A DNA stretch of 64,000 nucleotides from positions 1-64,000 of the forward strand of contig NZ_JAUCZF010000002.1 of the NCBI RefSeq assembly GCF_030373245.1, read 5' to 3'. The stretch's first letter is position 1. The number at the start of each line of letters is the position of its first letter. The notes under the pieces are model-generated. The model searched no databases. It was not told where the DNA came from and saw only the letters and a program-made list of their open reading frames with translations. A program made the translations under genes and the position numbers. Positions 4,890 to 23,751 of the stretch are shown piece after piece. Origin of the DNA: Hydrogenophaga sp. (GTDB lineage Bacteria > Pseudomonadota > Gammaproteobacteria > Burkholderiales > Burkholderiaceae_C).

Positions 4890-4916
4890 TCAAGTCGGCG
4901 CTTAAGCGGCCGAAAT
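4890..4916 (+). promoter_or_regulatory. Sigma-28 (FliA)-type promoter for the unknown gene at 4973
   Basis: TCAAGTCG, exactly 11 bases, then GCCGAAAT, compared with the enteric consensus TAAAGTTT-N11-GCCGATAA. The spacer holds the perfect palindrome CGCTTAAGCG. It lies about 57 bases before the start codon and points the right way. Confidence 0.65.
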
Positions 4917-4972
4917 CCCTCAGGAACACCTGGAAAGTCTTGCTCCAGGACCCGTGAAAGAGGGGGTTTTCC

Positions 4973-5629
4973 ATGATCAACATTTCCACCCAGCTGCCCG
5001 CGGTCTGGACCCCGCAGGCTGCGCAGTCGCCCGCCGCGGTGGCCGCCGTGGCGCCCATCCGTCCCGTGCAGGAAAGTGGCCGCAATGGGCAGTCTGGCGC
5101 TGGCGCCGACCCTGAAACGCAGGCGTCCCGCCAGGGTCGTCGTCGGCCCGAGTCCGAATCGGCACCGATATTGCCGCGCAGGTCCGGCCAGGAAGAAGAT
5201 TCCACCGGCGCTCTGCGCAGCACGAGCACCGCGCAGGCAGAGCGGCTGTCGCAAGCCGATGCCGAACAGCGCGCCGAGCAGGAAGCGGCTCAGCAAGCCG
5301 CGGAGGCCGCGCGGCGCGAGCAGCTTCAGTCCGTGCTGACCAATGTCTGGAAAGCGAGTGCGGCGGTGGTGGACCGGGTGCTGGGTCGCGATGATGACGC
5401 CGCAGGCGGTGCATCACCGGTCAGCGGCGCCGCGGGTGGGGCTGCGGAGCGCGCCCCAGGTCGCTCGCAGCCAGCTGAACAGCTCTCGCTACCCTGGCCA
5501 GTGCAGCCGCAGGAGCGCGCCTTGCCCACCGCAATGAATGACGGCCGTGTGCCCGTGGCCTACGATGAGCGGGGCAACAGCAGCCTGGAGCCGATGGAGC
5601 CTGGCGCCCTGATCAGCCGCCGGGTCTGA
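4973..5629 (+). CDS. Uncharacterised, mostly disordered protein with a flagellar-type promoter
   Basis: A 218-aa protein of unknown function that I do not recognise. The N-terminus MINISTQLPAVWTPQAAQS has no signal peptide. Residues about 20-80 are low-complexity Gln/Arg/Pro/Ala. A charged Ala/Glu/Gln stretch (AERLSQADAEQRAEQEAAQQAAEAARREQLQSV, roughly 85-120) should form a coiled coil, followed by LTNVWKASAAVVDRVLGRD. The C-terminus (RVPVAYDERGNSSLEPMEPG) looks like the only compact, conserved-style segment. It is monocistronic, with a sigma-28-like promoter upstream and a strong terminator downstream, which suggests late flagellar expression. It could be an export substrate, chaperone or scaffold. 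No catalytic motif is visible. Confidence 0.75.
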   Translation: MINISTQLPAVWTPQAAQSPAAVAAVAPIRPVQESGRNGQSGAGADPETQASRQGRRRPESESAPILPRRSGQEEDSTGALRSTSTAQAERLSQADAEQRAEQEAAQQAAEAARREQLQSVLTNVWKASAAVVDRVLGRDDDAAGGASPVSGAAGGAAERAPGRSQPAEQLSLPWPVQPQERALPTAMNDGRVPVAYDERGNSSLEPMEPGALISRRV

Positions 5630-5661
5630 AGCCAGTTCCGGCGCGCAGGCACTCCAGCTCC

Positions 5662-5705
5662 AAAAAAAGACCCCGAATGCGCTGACGCATTCGGGGTCTT
5701 TTTTT
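5662..5705. terminator. Strong bidirectional terminator
   Basis: AAAAAAAGACCCCGAATGCG-CTGA-CGCATTCGGGGTCTTTTTTT is a perfect 20-bp arm hairpin with an A-run and a T-run. It separates the convergent unknown gene (plus) and hybrid kinase (minus) and can serve both. Confidence 0.95.
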
Positions 5706-5736: not shown

Positions 5737-8013
5737 TCAGATCGGGCTCACCGACTCGAACTGCCGCAACGAGAGCTGCGTGGCCTCCATGTCGTGGATG
5801 AGCTGCATATCCAGACCGGTTGGCAGGGGCGGGCCTTCTCTGTCGCTGGCCAGTTGCTCAATCAGCTCTGCCGTCTTCACGATGGCACGAAAACCCAGCA
5901 GCATCGCCGTGCCCTTGAGCTTGTGGGCGTTGTACTGGATGTCGGCGCGATCCTTGCCCTTGAGCGCAGCCAGCAGCACGTGCAAGGTGCCTTCGGGCGG
6001 TTCAAACAAGGTCTCAAGCATCTCGTTCATCGACTCGTCGGGCATCATGGAAAGGATCTCCCGGTAAGACTCGGCATCGATCACGACTTCGCGCGGCACG
6101 ATCGGTCTTTGCAGACGAACCGGCAGCTCACTGGCCGACAGCGGTGCAGCGCTGCTGGCACGCGCTGGCGTGTCGTCCGCGGCGGTGGGGTCGAGCAGGC
6201 CGCACCGGCGAAGCGCGCGCTTGAGTTCGTCAGCCTGCAAGGGCTTGCTGGTGAATTCGGAGACGCCCACTTCCAGCGCCCGCTTGCGGGTGTCGTTCAC
6301 CACATCGGCAGTGACCAGGATCACCGGGATGTCCCCGGTGGAGCCACCCAGGCGGCGGATGGCCTCGGTCGTCGCCAGCCCATCGAGCAGCGGCATGTGA
6401 TAGTCCAGCAGCACCACGTCAAAGGGCAGGCTTGCCAGCAACTGCAGCGCCTCCTCGCCGTTCTCGCAGAACGTGGCATCGTGACCCATCTTCTGCAGCA
6501 GGATGCTCATGTACTTGAGGTTGATCGGGTGGTCTTCGGCCACCAGCACGCGCAGACTCCGGCTGGGCGCCAAGCCCATGTGGCTGCTCACGCCCGCCTC
6601 GGGCGGATCGGTCTCGGTCAGCGCCAGGCTGACGGTGAATACAGACCCCACGCCGGGGCTGCTGATGACCTCGATGTCGCCGCCCATCATGCGGGCCAGG
6701 TTGCGCGAGATCTCCAGCCCCAGACCGGTGCCGCCAATGCGCCGGCGCAGCGAATTGTCGGCCTGGTAGAAGCGGGTGAACAGCTGGGACACGGTGGTCG
6801 GGTCCATGCCGACACCGGTGTCGCTGACCCGGATCTCCACACCCGCTGCGCCATCGGCGCGGCGGCGAAGCTCGGCCCTGACCTCACCGGCTGGCGTGAA
6901 CTTGATGGCGTTGTTGATCAGGTTGAAGAGGATCTGGCGCAGGCGCGTGGCGTCGGCCTCGACCCAGGTGGGCAGATCGGGGGCGACGCAGATGTCCAGC
7001 TCAAGCCCCTTGTCGCGCGCGGCCACCTGCATGAGGCCATCGACCTCCTGCACCACCGTTTGAATATGCACCGGTGCCACCGACAGTTTGAGCGTGCCCG
7101 ACTCCATGGTCGAGACATCGAGGATGTCGTTGAGCACACCCAGCAGGTGCAGGGCGGAATCGCGTGCAGTCTGCAGGTAGTCGCGCTGATGGCCAGTGAG
7201 GTTGGGCTCATCCATCAGGTTGAGCATGCCCAGCAAGCCCTGAAACGGTGTGCGGATCTCGTGACTCATGTTGGCCAGGAACACGCTCTTGCCCCGGTTG
7301 GCCGCCTCCGCCTGGTCGCGCGCTTCGGCCACCGCGGCGTTGAGCGACTGCAGTGCGCTGTACTGCTGCTGCTGTCTTCGGATATGGCCGACCAGCAAAC
7401 TGACAAAGAGCAGCATCACCACGCACTGAACCGCCGCCAGCGCAATCACGAGTCTGCTCTGTTGCTGGAGCTGCGAGTTGCGTTCGTCCAGAAAGCGGGC
7501 GACGGCGCGGTTGGCCTGGCGGGTCAGCTCAGAGAGCTGGGGCAGCAGCCCCTGGATGGCCTGATCCAGCTGCGCGATCGAAGCGGGTGTGGCGGCCAGG
7601 CTTTCGGGCTGGGCAAACAGCGGATCGGCCAGGGCGGTGAAATCGCGAACAGAGCCAATCGCCTGCTGGTACTCTACCGAGCCTTCCAGCAGATCGCGCC
7701 GCGGGATCCGGGTGATCAGGTCGATGCGGCTGAGGAACACTTCGTAGCGCGCCTGCAGCTCATAAGGATCCGCCGAAGCGGGCTCGCGCTCAGTCTGGAT
7801 CAGCACCTGGTCTAGTCGGGACAGCTCGCGTTCCAGCTGGTAGGCCTGCCACATGATGGAGTCGACCTGGTTGGTGGACACATCGTCCAGCAAGCGCAAC
7901 TGCTGCCACTGGATCCAGCCCAGTGGCGTAAGCGTCACCGCCAGCATCACCGCGATCGCGGTGAGCCAGTGACGCCGCTGCCAGGTTGACAGGTTGGGCA
8001 TGAGGGGCTTCAT
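5737..8013 (-). CDS. Hybrid sensor histidine kinase (2 TM, HisKA-HATPase-REC-HPt)
   Basis: A 758-aa inner-membrane kinase. TM1 is about residues 17-35 and TM2 about 188-210, enclosing a roughly 150-residue helical periplasmic domain. The HisKA H-box is [18 protein letters not shown] with His251. The HATPase follows with [15 protein letters not shown] and [20 protein letters not shown] receiver begins at [16 protein letters not shown] with the acceptor Asp in [15 protein letters not shown]-terminal HPt has the active His in [15 protein letters not shown]. This is a full internal phosphorelay, so an external response regulator should receive the phosphate; none is adjacent on this strand. Its ATG overlaps the stop of the upstream molybdopterin-fold gene (ATGA), so the two are translationally coupled and probably form one sensory unit. 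The signal is unknown. Confidence 0.93.
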
Positions 8014-8513
8014 TGCACGTCAAGTGCCTTGAGCTGCCAGATGGAACGCTCGTAGTAGGTGGAGGAGCGCAGTTCGCTGCTGTCGTCAAACGGATAGACA
8101 ACGAACAGAGGGCCTTTTTCGCGCACCGGCATCGGCTGGTCATCGAGCAGCCGCGCCACGATGACTTTGTGCCGGGTGGTGTCGGCCACCGGAATGCTGA
8201 TCTTGTAGTCGTTGATCGCCACGGCACTCACCGTGCTGCCGCTGGCCTTCACCGCTGCCAGCACGTCCGCCAGCAGCGGTCCGGTGAATTTCACGGGCTT
8301 GTCGTACCAGGGCGTGCGGGTGGTGAAGCTGTGTTGGGGAAGCGCTTCCATCATCTTCATGTCGAAGCGGGCTTTGTCCCCCGCGTTCTTCAAGCCGATC
8401 TTGCCGCTGACCGTGAGCACCGGCCGCTCGGTGGGTGGCTTGAGCGCCATGGTTGCACTGGAAACGCCCAGACCGGTCACGAGCAGCAGGGCGGAAAAAT
8501 GGCGACGTTTCAT
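8010..8513 (-). CDS. Exported molybdopterin-binding-fold protein lacking cysteine; likely partner of the hybrid kinase
   Basis: A 167-aa protein with a signal peptide (MKRRHFSALLLVTGLGVSSATMA) whose RRHF resembles a twin-arginine motif. The body matches small proteins of the oxidoreductase molybdopterin-binding domain family: LTVSGKIG, FTTRTPWYDKPVKFTGPLLADVLAAV, INDYKISIPVADT, MPVREKGPLFVVYPFD. There is no cysteine anywhere, so the Mo-ligating Cys of sulfite-oxidase enzymes is missing and catalysis is unlikely. The stop overlaps the kinase start by 4 bases. It starts 46 bases after cheB ends, and AAAGGA precedes its ATG. A periplasmic ligand-sensing subunit of the kinase is the best inference. 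Confidence 0.8.
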   Translation of the reverse strand: MKRRHFSALLLVTGLGVSSATMALKPPTERPVLTVSGKIGLKNAGDKARFDMKMMEALPQHSFTTRTPWYDKPVKFTGPLLADVLAAVKASGSTVSAVAINDYKISIPVADTTRHKVIVARLLDDQPMPVREKGPLFVVYPFDDSSELRSSTYYERSIWQLKALDVQ

Positions 8514-8559: not shown

Positions 8560-9651
8560 TCAGATGCGGTGACGAACCGCGGTGGTGGTGCTGGACAAGC
8601 GTTCGAGCAAGGCAGGTGCGATCTGCGTCAGCGGAAGCACTTCGTGAGCGGCGCCGCACTGAATGGCCATGCGCGGCATGCCGAAGACCACACAGCTCGC
8701 TTCGTCCTGCACCAGGTTGTAGCTGCCCGCATCTTTCATTTCGCGCATGGCCTGGGCACCATCGCCACCCATGCCGGTCAGCATCACGCCCAGGGCATTG
8801 GGACCGAGCACGCGCGCGGCCGATCGAAACAGCACCTCCACCGAGGGTCGATGCCGGTTCACCGGTTCGGTGTCTTCGACCACAGCGACGTAGTTGGATC
8901 CGCTGCGATCGATGCGCAGGTGGTGCCCGCCGGGTGCCAGGTAGGCGTGACCCGGCAAGAGGCGATCGCCGTGGCGGGCCTCGGCCACACGGATGCGGCA
9001 GAGCGAATTGAGGCGGGCCGCGAAGCTTGTGGTGAAGCCCGGCGGCATGTGTTGCGTGATCACGATGGCAGGCGAGTCGGCCGGCATCGGCGTGAGCACC
9101 TCGCGGATCGCTTCGGTGCCGCCGGTGGAAGCGCCGATGCAGATGACCTTTTCGGTCGACAGGCGGGGCAGAGGCGCGCTGATCACCGGTGCATCGGGCG
9201 GTGCGCTGCTGGCACTGCTCAGCGACCCGCTCTTGTGGCGGCCCACTTTGGCGCTGGCGGCGATTCGGATCTTTTCGACGATGTCGCTGGCGAGCTCATT
9301 CAGGCCAGTTGTCACGCCGATGCGCGGCTTTGCGACAAAGTCCACCGCACCGAGTTCCAGCGCTCGCAGAGTGACCTCGGCGCCCTGCTCAGTGAGCGTC
9401 GAGACCATGAGCACCGGCATCGGCCGCAGGCGCATCAGGCGCGATAGGAACTCAAGACCGTCCATGCGTGGCATCTCCACGTCCAGCGTGATTACGTCCG
9501 GGTTGAGCTCGCGGATCATCTCGCGCGCCACCAGAGGGTCGCTGGCTGCACCCACACACACCATGTCCCGCTGGCGGTTGATGATTTCGGTCAGCAGGCT
9601 TCGCACCAGCGCCGAGTCGTCAACCACCACCACCGAAGTTTTTCTTGTCAT
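8560..9651 (-). CDS. cheB: Chemotaxis response regulator protein-glutamate methylesterase/deamidase CheB
   Basis: Removes methyl groups from receptor glutamates, and can deamidate glutamines, when phosphorylated by CheA. The 363-aa protein has the standard two-domain plan. The N-terminal receiver starts [20 protein letters not shown], with phospho-Asp57 in [13 protein letters not shown] and Lys109 in VAKPR. A Ser/Ala/Pro linker of about 20 residues lies around 141-160. The C-terminal methylesterase has Ser175 in GASTGGTE, His201 in TQHMPPGFT and the Asp in MLTGMGGDG. It is the last che gene of the minus-strand run cheY-cheA-cheR-cheD-cheB. A 112-base gap separates it from cheD. Confidence 0.96.
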
Positions 9652-9763
9652 GTTGATCCCCTAAACCATCGTGTCCTGTCGGTCTCCCAAGATGCCGCCT
9701 TGACCCGTAACACCCTGAACCGGATCGCATCCAGTAGGGCCGAGTGCAGCGCAGCCGGGCTGC

Positions 9764-10462
9764 TCAGAAAAGGTCCACCGATCCTCCTACTGCGGCCTTG
9801 ACCACCACCGAAGCAAGTCCCTTGCGCTCCTGCGTGGCCAGAGTCTCGGGGTGAGAGTGCGCCAGGCGCTTGACCATGGCCTTGCCGGTGACCGGGAAGT
9901 AGCAGACCTTGCGTGGATGGATGTCGAGCACGTCCTTGGAGACGATCGCGATGCGCTCGGTATGCAGGTAGTCGAGCACGAACTCGGTGTTGCGCTCGCC
10001 CACGTTCATGGTGGTGAAGCTGTGCATCACCTGACCACCACCAAAAACCTTGGCCTGCATCGCCTCGCGTCGGGCGCCGAGCTTGAGCATTTCGTTGATC
10101 AGCAGCTCCATGGCGTAGGAGCCATAGCGCCCAGACGTATCGCCGCCACCCTCGGGCAGCATGAAATGATTCATGCCACCGACCCGCGCCTGAGGGTCCC
10201 AGATGCAGGCTGCGATGCAAGAGCCGAGTACGGTCATGACCATCATGTCGTCGCGGGTCACGTAGTACTCGCCCGGCAGCACCTTGACGGTATCGACCCG
10301 GAAATGGTGGTCGTGATAGAAGAAAGATGCCTCGCCCGGCTTGGGTTTTTGCTGCTTGAGCAGATCGACGCGCGAACCTGCGGGCACACCCAGGCGGGGC
10401 GGCGGGGTGGTCGTGATGGGGCTGGCGCGGGGTGGTTGCGCGGCTGATCGGGTGTCAAACAC
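9764..10462 (-). CDS. cheD: Chemoreceptor glutamine deamidase CheD
   Basis: Deamidates specific receptor glutamines to glutamates and can bind CheY-P or CheC in other species. The catalytic Cys and His are visible in MTVLGSCIAACIWDP and VGGMNHFMLP, near residues 82 and 99. C-terminal motifs FGGGQVM and CYFPVTGKAMVKRL fit the family. The ORF track opens at 10546 inside cheR. GTG at 10462 overlaps the cheR stop (GTGTTTGA) and gives 232 aa, so coupled translation from that GTG is likely. The first 45 residues are a non-conserved Pro-rich tail. CheD usually goes with CheC or non-enteric chemotaxis; here it accompanies CheZ-type phosphatases. Confidence 0.93.
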   Translation of the reverse strand: MFDTRSAAQPPRASPITTTPPPRLGVPAGSRVDLLKQQKPKPGEASFFYHDHHFRVDTVKVLPGEYYVTRDDMMVMTVLGSCIAACIWDPQARVGGMNHFMLPEGGGDTSGRYGSYAMELLINEMLKLGARREAMQAKVFGGGQVMHSFTTMNVGERNTEFVLDYLHTERIAIVSKDVLDIHPRKVCYFPVTGKAMVKRLAHSHPETLATQERKGLASVVVKAAVGGSVDLF

Positions 10463-11339
10463 GTTCGTACACCGTCTTTCCGCGCAGCACAAACAGATGG
10501 CGTGCATCACTGAAGTTTTCCGCGTGTCCGACAAATAGCTTGCCACCAGGTTTCATGACGCGGTGGATGCGCTCCAGCACCTGGCGCTGCGTCGCGGCAT
10601 CGAAATAGATCATCACATTGCGGCAGAACACGATGTCGAACGGGTCACGAAACGGCAGTTCCTGGATCAGGTTGACCGTCTGGAAACCCATGGATTTGCG
10701 CAACTCGGGCTTGATGCGCATCAGCCCGGCGTTGCCACCCTTGCCGCGCATGAAGAATCGCTGGACGCGCTCCGGGCTCAGACCTTTGACGCCATCGGCC
10801 TTGTACACACCGCGTTCGGCCGTGGCCAGCACCTGGGTGTCGATGTCGCTGTTGAGCAGTTCAAACGATCCGGAGGCACCCAGCGCCTCGGTGGCCGTCA
10901 TGGCGATCGAATACGGTTCTTCGCCGGTGGAGGCAGCCGAGCACCAGATGCGCCAGGGACGCGATCTTTCGGCGTTCAGCATCTCGCTCAGCACCTCGAA
11001 GTGGTGCTGCTCGCGGAAGAAGGCGGTGAGGTTGGTGGTGAGCACGTTGATGAAGCTCTGCCACTCGCTGCCATCATGTTTCTCCAGCCAGTCCAGGTAG
11101 CTGCTGAAACTGGTGTGACCGGTTTCGCGCAGGCGACGCGATACGCGGCTGTAGACCATGGCGTGTTTGCCGTCGTGCAGGCTGATGCCGGCCTTCTGGT
11201 AGATCAGGCGCTTGATGCGCTCGAAATCGGCATCGCTCCAGACGAACTCTCGCTCCGCCGACAGCGGACCGGGCTCGATCAGCCGCGGCGCGGGCAATGG
11301 GCGCGGTGGACGCGCGAGGGAAGGAGACGGCTGCAGCAT
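10455..11339 (-). CDS. cheR: Chemotaxis protein methyltransferase CheR
   Basis: Methylates receptor glutamates using S-adenosylmethionine. The 294-aa protein has a Pro-rich N-terminal tail of about 30 residues. The CheR N-domain follows (FERIKRLIYQKAGISLHDGKHAMVYSRVSRRLR), then VLTTNLTAFFREQHHFEVL. The SAM-binding motif is RIWCSAASTGEEPYSIAM, and the late methyltransferase motif is FDIVFCRNVMIYFD. The C-terminal MKPGGKLFVGHAENFSD is the last family signature. It lies 31 bases after cheA, and its stop overlaps the cheD start. Confidence 0.96.
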   Translation of the reverse strand: MLQPSPSLARPPRPLPAPRLIEPGPLSAEREFVWSDADFERIKRLIYQKAGISLHDGKHAMVYSRVSRRLRETGHTSFSSYLDWLEKHDGSEWQSFINVLTTNLTAFFREQHHFEVLSEMLNAERSRPWRIWCSAASTGEEPYSIAMTATEALGASGSFELLNSDIDTQVLATAERGVYKADGVKGLSPERVQRFFMRGKGGNAGLMRIKPELRKSMGFQTVNLIQELPFRDPFDIVFCRNVMIYFDAATQRQVLERIHRVMKPGGKLFVGHAENFSDARHLFVLRGKTVYERV

Positions 11340-11370
11340 GGGGTGTCCTGGAAAGGGTCGGGCGCGGGGG

Positions 11371-13497
11371 TCAGTGGCGTGTGCGCCGCACCAGGCCCGA
11401 GGTATCCAGGATCAGGGCAACCTTGCCGTCGCCGAGGATGGTGGCGCCTGATACGTTGGGCACCTTGCGGTAGTTGGATTCGAGGTTCTTGATCACCACC
11501 TGCTGCTGGCCGATGAGCTCGTCCACCATCAGCGCCGCGCGAGATCCCTCGGCTTCCACCACCACCATGATCGGGCTGCTGGCGTTGAACTCGAAGCGGG
11601 GTACCTGGAATACCTGCTCCAGCTCGATCACCGGCATGTACTCTTCGCGCACCTTGACCAGGCGCGCACCTTGAGCGACCGTGCTGACATCACTGGCGCG
11701 GATCTGGAACGATTCGATCACCGAAGCCAGCGGCAGGATGTAGACCTCGTCGCTGACGCGCACCGTCATGCCGTCCATGATGGCCAGGGTCAGCGGCAGG
11801 CGCACCGACACGCGCATGCCGTAGCCTTCGGCGGAATCGATCTCGACTGTGCCGCCAAGCGACAGGATGTTTTTCTTGACCACGTCCATGCCGACGCCGC
11901 GGCCGGAGACATCTGTCACGGTTTCGGCGGTGGAGAAGCCAGGCGCCATGATCAGGTTCCAGACCTCGGTGTCGCTGAGCGAATCTGGCGCGTCCATGCC
12001 CTTTTCGCGCGCCTTGCTCAGCAGCTTCGCGCGCGAAAGGCCTTTGCCGTCGTCGCGCACCTCGATCAGGATGGAGCCGCCCTGGTGGCTGGCCGAAAGT
12101 GTGATGGTGCCTTGCTCGGGCTTGCCTTTGGCACGGCGTTCCTCGGGCATCTCAATGCCGTGGTCGGCGCTGTTGCGGATCAGGTGGGTGAGCGGGTCGG
12201 TGATCTTTTCGATCAGACCCTTGTCGAGTTCGGTCGACTCGCCGTGGGTGATGAGATCCACCTTTTTGCCCAGCTTGGCGGTGAGGTCGCGCAGCATGCG
12301 GGGAAAGCGGTTGAACACCACTGACATCGGAATCATGCGGATCGACATCACGGCTTCCTGCAGGTCGCGCGTGTTGCGGTCCAGGTCGGCCAGCCCGGCC
12401 AGCAGAGGCTGGTTGGCGGCGCTGTCGAGCTCACGGCTCTTTTGTGCCAGCATGGCCTGGGTGATAACGAGCTCACCGACCAGGTTGATCAGCTGGTCCA
12501 CCTTGCTGACGGAGACGCGCAGCGTGCTCGATTCCATAGAGCTGGTGCTGGGTGCGCGAGCCTCAGGCCGCGGCGCGGTCTTGTTCGCCATGGGCGTGAT
12601 CACCGGCTCACTCGCGGCGGCAGCGGGCTGGCTGGCGTCGCTGGGCGAACCCGGGGCGCCGTCGAAGAAACCAAAATCGCTGGCGCCATCGGAGGATGGC
12701 GCATGGCTGACCGGCGGGGAAGGCGAATCGACCTGCGTCGCAGCAGCGAGATCGTGGATGGCGATCTGCTCTTTGCTCACATGGAAGGTGAACAGATCCA
12801 GCAGATCGGTGTCGCTGGCTGAGGTCTGGACGCGGTAGACGCGCTTGTCGCTTTGGTCGCAGGGCAGGGGCTCGATCACGCCCAGACCGGGAATGTCGCG
12901 AAACAGCTCGGCGATGCCGTCGGCTTGGTTCGGCTGATCGAGTGGACCGATGTGCAGTTCGAGCTGTCGCAAGCCTGCTTGGGCGGGGGCGCTGACGACC
13001 ACGGCGGGCGCAGCAGGTGCAGCAGGTGCAGCAGGTGCGGTCGCCTGGGAGGTCGCCGCGCCGGGCAGGCTCGGGCCGCCCTGGGCGAGCTGGCTGATGC
13101 GACCCACCAGATTGGCGGTAGCGGGCGCATCGACCCGTTTGCCCTGGTGTTGGGCCAGCAGCAGGCGCAAGGCGTCGGAGGATTCCAGCAACACGTCGAC
13201 CATGGCAGCAGTCGGCTGCAGCTCGTGGCGGCGCAGCTTGTCCAGCAGCGACTCCATCTGGTGGGTGAGCTCGGCCACGTCGGCAAAGCCAAAGGTGGCG
13301 GCGCCGCCCTTGATGGAGTGCGCACAGCGGAAGATCGCGTTGAGCTCTTCGTCGTCGGCTGCTTCCAGATCCAGCTGCAGCAGCATCTGCTCCATCTGGT
13401 CCAGGTTCTCACCAGCTTCTTCAAAGAAGATCTGGTAGAACTGGGTCAGGTCGAAATTGCCGTTGGCACTTTGGCCTTCGGTGGTCATGTCACCCAT
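11371..13497 (-). CDS. cheA: Chemotaxis histidine kinase CheA
   Basis: The central kinase of the chemosensory array, phosphorylating CheY and CheB. The 708-aa protein starts with an HPt domain carrying His60 in FRCAHSIKGGAATFGF. An Ala/Pro linker encoded by a short 9-bp tandem repeat follows, then a P2-like region (LDLFTFHVSKEQIAIHDL) and a second linker. The dimerisation domain begins STLRVSVSKVDQLINLVGELVITQAML. The HATPase boxes are LIRNSADHGIEMPEER, IEVRDDGKGLSRAKL and DVSGRGVGMDVVKKNI. The C-terminal CheW-like domain includes RAALMVDELIGQQQVVIKNLE. AGGAG six bases before the first ATG supports the start. No cheW or receptor gene follows, which is unusual for this operon type. Confidence 0.97.
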   Translation of the reverse strand: MGDMTTEGQSANGNFDLTQFYQIFFEEAGENLDQMEQMLLQLDLEAADDEELNAIFRCAHSIKGGAATFGFADVAELTHQMESLLDKLRRHELQPTAAMVDVLLESSDALRLLLAQHQGKRVDAPATANLVGRISQLAQGGPSLPGAATSQATAPAAPAAPAAPAVVVSAPAQAGLRQLELHIGPLDQPNQADGIAELFRDIPGLGVIEPLPCDQSDKRVYRVQTSASDTDLLDLFTFHVSKEQIAIHDLAAATQVDSPSPPVSHAPSSDGASDFGFFDGAPGSPSDASQPAAAASEPVITPMANKTAPRPEARAPSTSSMESSTLRVSVSKVDQLINLVGELVITQAMLAQKSRELDSAANQPLLAGLADLDRNTRDLQEAVMSIRMIPMSVVFNRFPRMLRDLTAKLGKKVDLITHGESTELDKGLIEKITDPLTHLIRNSADHGIEMPEERRAKGKPEQGTITLSASHQGGSILIEVRDDGKGLSRAKLLSKAREKGMDAPDSLSDTEVWNLIMAPGFSTAETVTDVSGRGVGMDVVKKNILSLGGTVEIDSAEGYGMRVSVRLPLTLAIMDGMTVRVSDEVYILPLASVIESFQIRASDVSTVAQGARLVKVREEYMPVIELEQVFQVPRFEFNASSPIMVVVEAEGSRAALMVDELIGQQQVVIKNLESNYRKVPNVSGATILGDGKVALILDTSGLVRRTRH
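13010..13036. repeat. Three perfect 9-bp tandem repeats in the cheA linker
   Basis: GCAGCAGGT is repeated three times in frame, encoding the Ala-Pro-Ala repeats of the CheA linker on the minus strand. Copy-number change would alter linker length without a frameshift. Confidence 0.8.
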
Positions 13498-19583: not shown

Positions 19584-19947
19584 GAGGGCCTTGTGGCTTG
19601 AGTTGTGCGATCTGTGCAAGGCGCGCGGCAAAGCCGCCGGCTTGCAAAGGTGCAGTGGCGCCCGGTGGCGGCCCCGCCATGTCGGAAGCAGGCAGAGGCA
19701 GGCTGTGCAAGGCGGTGATGCCGCCCGGTGCGACGCCCAGCACCAGACACAGGCTGTTGTCGCCTTCTCCCACCTGCACCGTGACCACGCGCTGCTGCGG
19801 TCCGAGCGACAGGCTGTTCATCACCTGCAGCCGCGGTCCGCCCTGGCTGGCGGCGCCAGGCAGGTGCCGCCGGTAGCGCTGCAGCATCCAGGCGACGCCG
19901 ATCATCACGACCAGCAACACCACAGCAGGCAAAGCGTTTTGGAACAT
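19570..19947 (-). CDS. fliO: Flagellar biosynthesis protein FliO
   Basis: A small bitopic membrane protein that helps FliP assemble. The 125-aa protein has one N-terminal membrane helix ([24 protein letters not shown]) and a cytoplasmic domain containing [44 protein letters not shown], the FliO signature. It is spaced 138 bases from fliN by a family-1 repeat and overlaps fliP. Confidence 0.92.
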
Positions 19948-20012
19948 AAAGTTGAAGGAAAAACAACCGATAAAAAGAAGACCGATGCGGCGCGAGGTAG
20001 ATCAGACTCAGG

Positions 20013-22323: not shown

Positions 22324-23751
22324 TCAAGCGAATACGTCGAGCGGCCGACTGCCGTCGGCGCGCGGCCGGCTCGTCAATGCCGCCGCGGGCTCCGTGGACT
22401 CGGCTACCCGGGCCTCGCGCTTGGGGTTGCGGTGTTGCGCGTCGGCATCTGATCCCTGGCCGCTGCCGGAGGTCAGGCCTTGCCCACCCACCGACACGCC
22501 ACCGAGCTGCATGCCACTGCGCTCCAGCAGCTCGCTCAGGGCAGGTTCAGCGCTTTGCTGAATGCCCTGGCGGGCTTCGACGCTGTCGGTCCGGAAATCG
22601 ACCCGCACCTCCTGCCCGCTGATGGACAGTTGCACGTCAATTGCCTCCGTGCTGCCTTCTCCCACGCGAAGCGTGGCATGGCGCAACTGGTGCGCACCCA
22701 GGTGGCCCGGGGTTTCGAGCTCGGCTTCGGGATGGCCAGACAAATGGTCTGCCCTGGCTTCGCCCTCGGTGCGCAAGCTGCTCTCGCTGGTTGTGGAGCC
22801 CACCTGGGTGGCCTCCAGGGCCAAGGGTGCGAGCTGGTCTCGCGGTGCGGGTTGCTCGCCTGTGGCGCGGCGCAGTTCGGACGCACCGGCACCTGCAGGC
22901 GCGAGCGAAGGTGTTTCCGGGTTGGTCGTGCGCCAGGCCGTGCTTGCCAGTCGGCTGTCGAGTGCCACGGTGCTGCGCGGCGTGGCAGGCAGCGCGTGCG
23001 GTTGCAGCCGCGCCATGTCGTGGCTGGCTGCGTCTCGGGCCTGCAGCGCAGCGGTGACCGAGTAGCCGGACTTGCGACCCTTGTTGAGGACCGCGCTGAG
23101 CGGGGCGTCGGCGGCTGTCTGCCCGGCCAGCAAGGTGGCGCGGGCGCTCGCCTGAGCGTGATTCGCGGCTTGCGTCTGACTGCTGGCCGTCAGGTTGGCC
23201 GCAGTCTGAATGTGACCGCCGTCTGCTGTGCCCCCGGTAGGGGTGGCCGTGGCAGCCACCGGCATGCCGCGGGTCAGCAAGGCGGTGGCCTGGGTGCCGT
23301 TCTGCTCATCTGGCGAGACCGGTGTCAGGCCCAGCCCGCTGAGGTCGATGCCAGCGGTGGGGCGCTGACCGTATCCGATGCCCAGTGCGTTGGGCGAGAG
23401 CATCGAGCGAGCGGTGCTTGTTGCTCCTGGATCTCCGCGGGTGCGGCCAAGTGCCTCGGCCTGCCCACTCAGGTCGCCAAGACCCGAGGGATAGGCCCAG
23501 TTCAAGAGATTGCTGAGCGGGTTGCTCAAGTCCTCATCGGCATCACCCTGCGTGGCTCCTGTCAGGCTGCTGTCGTGCGCCAGTGGATCGGCTGCCAGCG
23601 CTCCACCCTGGCGGGTATCGCCCAACAGGGCCAGCAGGCTGGCAAAAATGTCGGTGCCGGCCTGGGCTGCGGCCTTGCGCTGCCCCGCAGGACCCTGCAC
23701 CGCGGTGGACGTTTGCGTGGCGGTGGACGCTGGGGCGGGGGAGGTGCTCAT
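22324..23751 (-). CDS. fliK: Flagellar hook-length control protein FliK
   Basis: A secreted molecular ruler that switches export from hook to filament proteins. The 475-aa protein has a long low-complexity Ala/Ser/Thr/Gln-rich N-terminal region and a C-terminal Flg_hook domain (IDVQLSISGQEVRVDFRTDSVEARQGIQQSAEPALSELLERSGMQLGGVSVG), followed by a Gly/Ser tail. It overlaps fliJ by 4 bases. Confidence 0.92.
   Translation of the reverse strand: MSTSPAPASTATQTSTAVQGPAGQRKAAAQAGTDIFASLLALLGDTRQGGALAADPLAHDSSLTGATQGDADEDLSNPLSNLLNWAYPSGLGDLSGQAEALGRTRGDPGATSTARSMLSPNALGIGYGQRPTAGIDLSGLGLTPVSPDEQNGTQATALLTRGMPVAATATPTGGTADGGHIQTAANLTASSQTQAANHAQASARATLLAGQTAADAPLSAVLNKGRKSGYSVTAALQARDAASHDMARLQPHALPATPRSTVALDSRLASTAWRTTNPETPSLAPAGAGASELRRATGEQPAPRDQLAPLALEATQVGSTTSESSLRTEGEARADHLSGHPEAELETPGHLGAHQLRHATLRVGEGSTEAIDVQLSISGQEVRVDFRTDSVEARQGIQQSAEPALSELLERSGMQLGGVSVGGQGLTSGSGQGSDADAQHRNPKREARVAESTEPAAALTSRPRADGSRPLDVFA

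Follow-up and report, generated by a model that had tools for sequence, protein, structure and literature searches.

The locus and its features

The window, meaning the whole 64,000-nucleotide stretch of Hydrogenophaga sp. DNA that was analysed, encodes CheB, CheD, CheR, CheA, flagellin, and sigma factor domains as assigned by Pfam. Facing the end of its chemotaxis cluster is a gene for a 218-aa protein, referred to here as the orphan gene, which is preceded by a flagellar-type promoter and followed by a strong terminator. The features of this region are as follows.

4890..4916, + strand: sigma-28 (FliA) type promoter, TCAAGTCG-N11-GCCGAAAT, assigned from sequence, a flagellin-promoter matrix, and ortholog conservation
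4929..4949, + strand: 5'-UTR hairpin, CCTGGA-N9-TCCAGG, just 3' of the predicted transcript start
4973..5629, + strand: ORF of 218 aa, encoding a disordered protein with one helix and with a conserved N-terminus (W12), core helix, and C-terminus
Residues 118-138 of the 218-aa protein: core helix, LQSVLTNVWKASAAVVDRVLG
C-terminus of the 218-aa protein: conserved segment, YDERGNSSLEPMEPGALISRRV
5661..5704, no single strand: bidirectional intrinsic terminator, GACCCCGAATGCG-CTGA-CGCATTCGGGGTC, with flanking A and T runs, from folding of both strands
5737..8013, - strand: hybrid histidine kinase (HisKA, HATPase, receiver; Pfam), convergent to the orphan gene, at the che cluster's end
8560..13497, - strand: cheB, cheD, cheR, cheA chemotaxis cluster (Pfam, synteny)

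Throughout the genus, wherever a contig shows the neighbourhood, the orphan gene is oriented tail-to-tail to the che cluster's end. The next gene past its che-side end is the hybrid kinase or cheB, sometimes with a few kb inserted, and the hybrid kinase adjoins the orphan gene at many, not all, orthologous loci. The upstream flank is variable across the genus. In the window, the interval between cheB and the orphan gene (5737-8513) holds the hybrid kinase and a small unclassified gene, and these are absent or displaced in several genus genomes.

An earlier sequence-only reading of this DNA had credited the gene with a perfect terminator of its own. The terminator is real and folds strongly, at about -42 kcal/mol on each strand (z about -10), but it separates the orphan gene from the convergent hybrid kinase gene, and since it is symmetric and common to both genes it is not exclusively the orphan gene's own. 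Rfam matches over it fell below gathering scores and merely reflect the hairpin.

A conserved sigma-28 promoter

The same reading had proposed a FliA-like promoter with 11-base spacing, and this was borne out. Running from the T of the -35 element at 4890 to the last A of GCCGAAA at 4915, TCAAGTCGGCGCTTAAGCGGCCGAAA scored 20.7 bits with a -35/-10 matrix and ranked second among the 127,946 positions scored over the two strands of the window, where only the fliC promoter came higher. The training set of the matrix was 19 Hydrogenophaga flagellin promoters, with the orphan gene's promoter excluded, and the matrix is thus independent of the orphan gene, though not of the sigma-28 consensus, since the genus fliC promoters came from a motif search. 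A site scoring at least 8 within 130 nt upstream was present in all 49 Hydrogenophaga orthologs as against 0.6% of control windows, and the distance from promoter to start codon was about 80-86 nt in every one of them. Because the spacer sequences have diverged among orthologs, this conservation is not mere DNA identity. A simple sigma-70 and terminator scan listed neither the promoter (4890-4915) nor the terminator (5661-5704); the promoter was missed because it is not of the sigma-70 type. With a promoter that matches the organism's own flagellin promoters and stands at the right distance from the gene, it is very probable, judging from sequence, that the orphan gene is expressed late and in a FliA-dependent manner.

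Two further observations concern sigma-28 sites in these genomes. The third-best site in the window, TAAAGTTGAAGGAAAAACAACCGATA (19947-19972, + strand, 20.5 bits), lies inside the minus-strand fli operon, between fliO-like and fliN-like ORFs, with no gene downstream of it on the + strand. Several Hydrogenophaga genomes (G003, G008, G015, G020, G033, and others) have five to eight flagellin-type matches each, and several of these matches have their own sigma-28 promoter.

Between promoter and start codon, form-A leaders (form A being the type of gene found in the window, and form B a second type described below) usually have a hairpin 10-17 nt past the -10 element. By a direct stem test, 39 of 49 form-A leaders can pair over 6 bp or more at this position, compared to 14% of shuffles; the stem sequences differ among leaders (CACCGG/CCGGTG, CAGCGG/CCGCTG, CCTGGA/TCCAGG). 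In form-B leaders a hairpin was found in 19 of 28, against 25% of shuffles, with positions more spread. The window's own 5'-UTR, taken alone, folds no better than shuffles, and a MAFFT alignment of the 5'-UTRs yielded no base pair in RNAalifold, probably because the stem is shifted by one base between sequences, which is why the direct stem test was used instead. The loop is often TGTYT-like in both forms (window 4929-4949; L036-L084). The hairpin may act as an mRNA stabiliser or as the target of a regulator.

A disordered, cysteine-free protein

The ORF is present as had been claimed. Searches of Pfam, NCBIfam, and the PDB gave no significant family or structure match for the 218-aa protein, in keeping with the proposal that it is not a known flagellar protein; its closest named relative comes from a Hydrogenophaga sp. 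MAG, and literature searches found no account of the protein or its family. AlphaFold2 modelled a single confident helix (residues 84-136) with low confidence elsewhere. The low-confidence remainder is read as disorder, and the description of a mostly disordered protein thus held up. Short segments are strongly conserved within it: M1, W12, W126, A128, S129, V132, L137, Y197, and G211 are invariant among 48 orthologs, and the C-terminal YDERGNSSLEP, picked out beforehand as conserved-looking, is indeed conserved across orthologs. A dN/dS of about 0.2-0.3 across orthologs indicates purifying selection on the coding sequence. That a chance promoter match happens to precede an unrelated or spurious ORF is scarcely credible: the low complexity of the protein speaks for it and nothing else does, while the ortholog-wide promoter, the dN/dS values, and the invariant motifs all speak against it, and these comparative data have already ruled it out.

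Composition is also distinctive. Cysteine is absent from all 49 form-A proteins examined (10,801 residues) and from all 29 form-B proteins. Charged residues make up 0.7% of positions 2-30 in form A compared to 24% in the remainder of the protein; in form B they make up 13% of positions 2-30, including a DR at 7-8. Among the products of the window, FliC, FliK, FlgL, and a presumed FlgK are free of cysteine, as are CheY and FliN. Most Che proteins of the window, namely CheA, CheB, CheD, and CheR, contain cysteine. Absence of cysteine is also frequent among disordered proteins rich in Ala, Pro, and Glu.

Distribution in Hydrogenophaga

Searching with the single protein sequence gave homologs in 52 of the 67 genus genomes. 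Such searches overlooked divergent orthologs, and a profile search recovered these in six further high-quality genomes of the genus. Among the 44 high-quality genomes, all 41 with flagellin have the gene and none of the 3 without flagellin does, where flagellin stands for a flagellin-type protein (PF00669, which matches FlgL too) and the co-occurrence rests on few independent losses. The three genomes lacking flagellin (G054, G059, G060) likewise have no FliA match above the curated cut-off, so that presence follows both flagella and FliA; in one genome (G023) the gene and a flagellin-type match occur with no FliA match over the cut-off. Widespread homologs in non-flagellated species would have spoken against a flagellar connection, and these three genus genomes have none. 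A plasmid search found no copies of the orphan gene. Since the gene occurs in every high-quality flagellated relative checked and in none of the three without flagella, the swimming machinery of this family probably includes it as a part so far overlooked.

A wider family in two forms

Outside Hydrogenophaga, at least seven genera of the family have form-A homologs next to cheB, with promoters of the TAAAGT-N13-CCGATA type. The first of these were weak profile hits, and further members came from the cheD regions of 60 genomes. Form B, to which two other hits led, lies at another locus and occurs in 43 of 181 genomes, spread over 25 further genera; its protein begins MQLPPVDRSPxWRPQGADLYSTGAS. 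It has no che linkage, and most members have a sigma-28-like promoter about 82-95 nt before the gene. The form-B loci are L214-L243, and those at L148/L214 and L150/L215 retain a sigma-28-like promoter away from flagellar genes. The two forms aligned over the core helix with an hhalign E-value of 2.8e-6 and a probability of 88%, and this alignment, together with shared layout, promoter class, and mutual exclusivity, provides good but not overwhelming grounds for considering them homologous. In one sample of 108 CheD-positive genomes, 31 had form B, 11 had form A, and none had both. One form is carried by 42 of the 44 genomes whose CheD is most similar; the two exceptions, G068 and G213, have CheD and neither form. 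One genome (G149) has a form-B homolog and no CheD match at 1e-30.

With either profile, 299 Burkholderiales genomes sampled across the order yielded no convincing homolog beyond the family; scoring covered about 10-13 candidates from each genome, and the protein is of low complexity. Four weak hits (L032, L035, L145, L151) proved on inspection not to be homologs.

Sigma-28 is able to drive non-flagellar genes, and the promoter could be real while the role of the product lies outside motility, with FliA coupling the gene to the motile state, as in a surface or biofilm lifestyle. Form B in particular is found away from flagellar genes, near what we take by eye to be DUF1854-like, queC-like, or rplM/rpsI-like genes (L148/L214, L150/L215). 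We consider a role of this kind unlikely, given how closely the gene follows flagellin in the genus, and given the che linkage of form A.

Possible functions of the product

Promoter conservation, co-occurrence with flagellin, and che linkage together make the orphan gene a well-supported candidate for a new member of the late flagellar regulon. The original suggestion to this effect stands, and extends to an unannotated gene found family-wide.

As to what the product does, the reading we lean towards, tentatively, is export by way of the flagellar type III apparatus. In this model the orphan gene would be a class-3 (late) gene, transcribed from its own promoter by FliA-RNA polymerase after hook completion. 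Its monocistronic mRNA would begin with the hairpin and end at the terminator common to the convergent gene, and would encode an intrinsically disordered, cysteine-free product with three conserved short segments. The first, an uncharged N-terminus rich in Ile, Ser, Thr, and Pro with an invariant Trp, would act as the export signal. The second, a central amphipathic helix (LxxVWxASxAVVD), and the third, a C-terminal tail (YDExGN...G.LISRRV), might bind a chaperone or filament partner, and the exported product might then be a filament-associated or regulatory late substrate. The uncharged N-terminus of form A and the lack of cysteine are compatible with export, a fit rather than a proof. The form-B N-terminus, with its DR at 7-8, looks less like an export signal and would count against export, and the cysteine argument is weakened by the cytoplasmic proteins CheY and FliN of the window, which are also cysteine-free.

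A cytoplasmic partner might just as well be the target of the helix and C-terminal motifs. The product of a late flagellar gene might then stay in the cytoplasm as a disordered adaptor, tuning motility through the binding of its core helix and tail to a protein of chemotaxis, the motor, or the cell pole. We hold this to be possible, if somewhat doubtful. The che linkage seen in Hydrogenophaga and in seven further genera favours it, as do the resemblance of the short conserved motifs within a disordered chain to docking motifs and a form-B N-terminus unlike an export signal; however, form B is found without che linkage, and an adaptor leaves the uncharged N-terminus of form A and the absence of cysteine unexplained.

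Whether by export through the flagellum or by acting on its assembly, the product may be a core flagellar component, so far unrecognised, of one family (Comamonadaceae-type Burkholderiales). It would descend from one ancestral gene with two mutually exclusive forms, sigma-28-controlled, cysteine-free, and disordered, in almost every flagellated member. The flagellar parts list is regarded as nearly complete. An unannotated gene with a late promoter in almost all flagellated members of a large group would point to a lineage-specific part or to a new output of the motility programme, and form B adds many host organisms for a simple deletion test.

Comparison with known flagellar systems

The FliA (sigma-28) late flagellar regulon includes fliC, flgM, flgKL, and che/mot genes. 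The orphan gene resembles these in promoter type, in -35 and -10 sequence, in spacing, and in its co-occurrence with flagella, but its product matches none of the known members.

Among these members, FlgM (PF04316) offers a likeness that could point to a regulator of the flagellar cascade, such as a second anti-sigma or FliZ-like factor. Both proteins are small and disordered and lie behind a sigma-28 promoter, and the proposed export is a further point of likeness. Nevertheless, the 218-aa protein has no PF04316 match, and a FlgM scoring above the Pfam cut-off is encoded elsewhere in the genome (G000:C2:48307-48468), so that identity with FlgM was rejected and a regulatory role of this kind appears improbable.

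FliK and other flagellar export substrates whose N-termini are disordered share with the 218-aa protein an N-terminus rich in Ser, Thr, Pro, and Ala with few charges, and an absence of cysteine; the window's own FliK-like gene is presumably that at 22324-23751, an identification made by eye on the basis of its sequence and location. Substrates of the FliK type differ in having a folded domain, where the 218-aa protein has a single short helix as its core.
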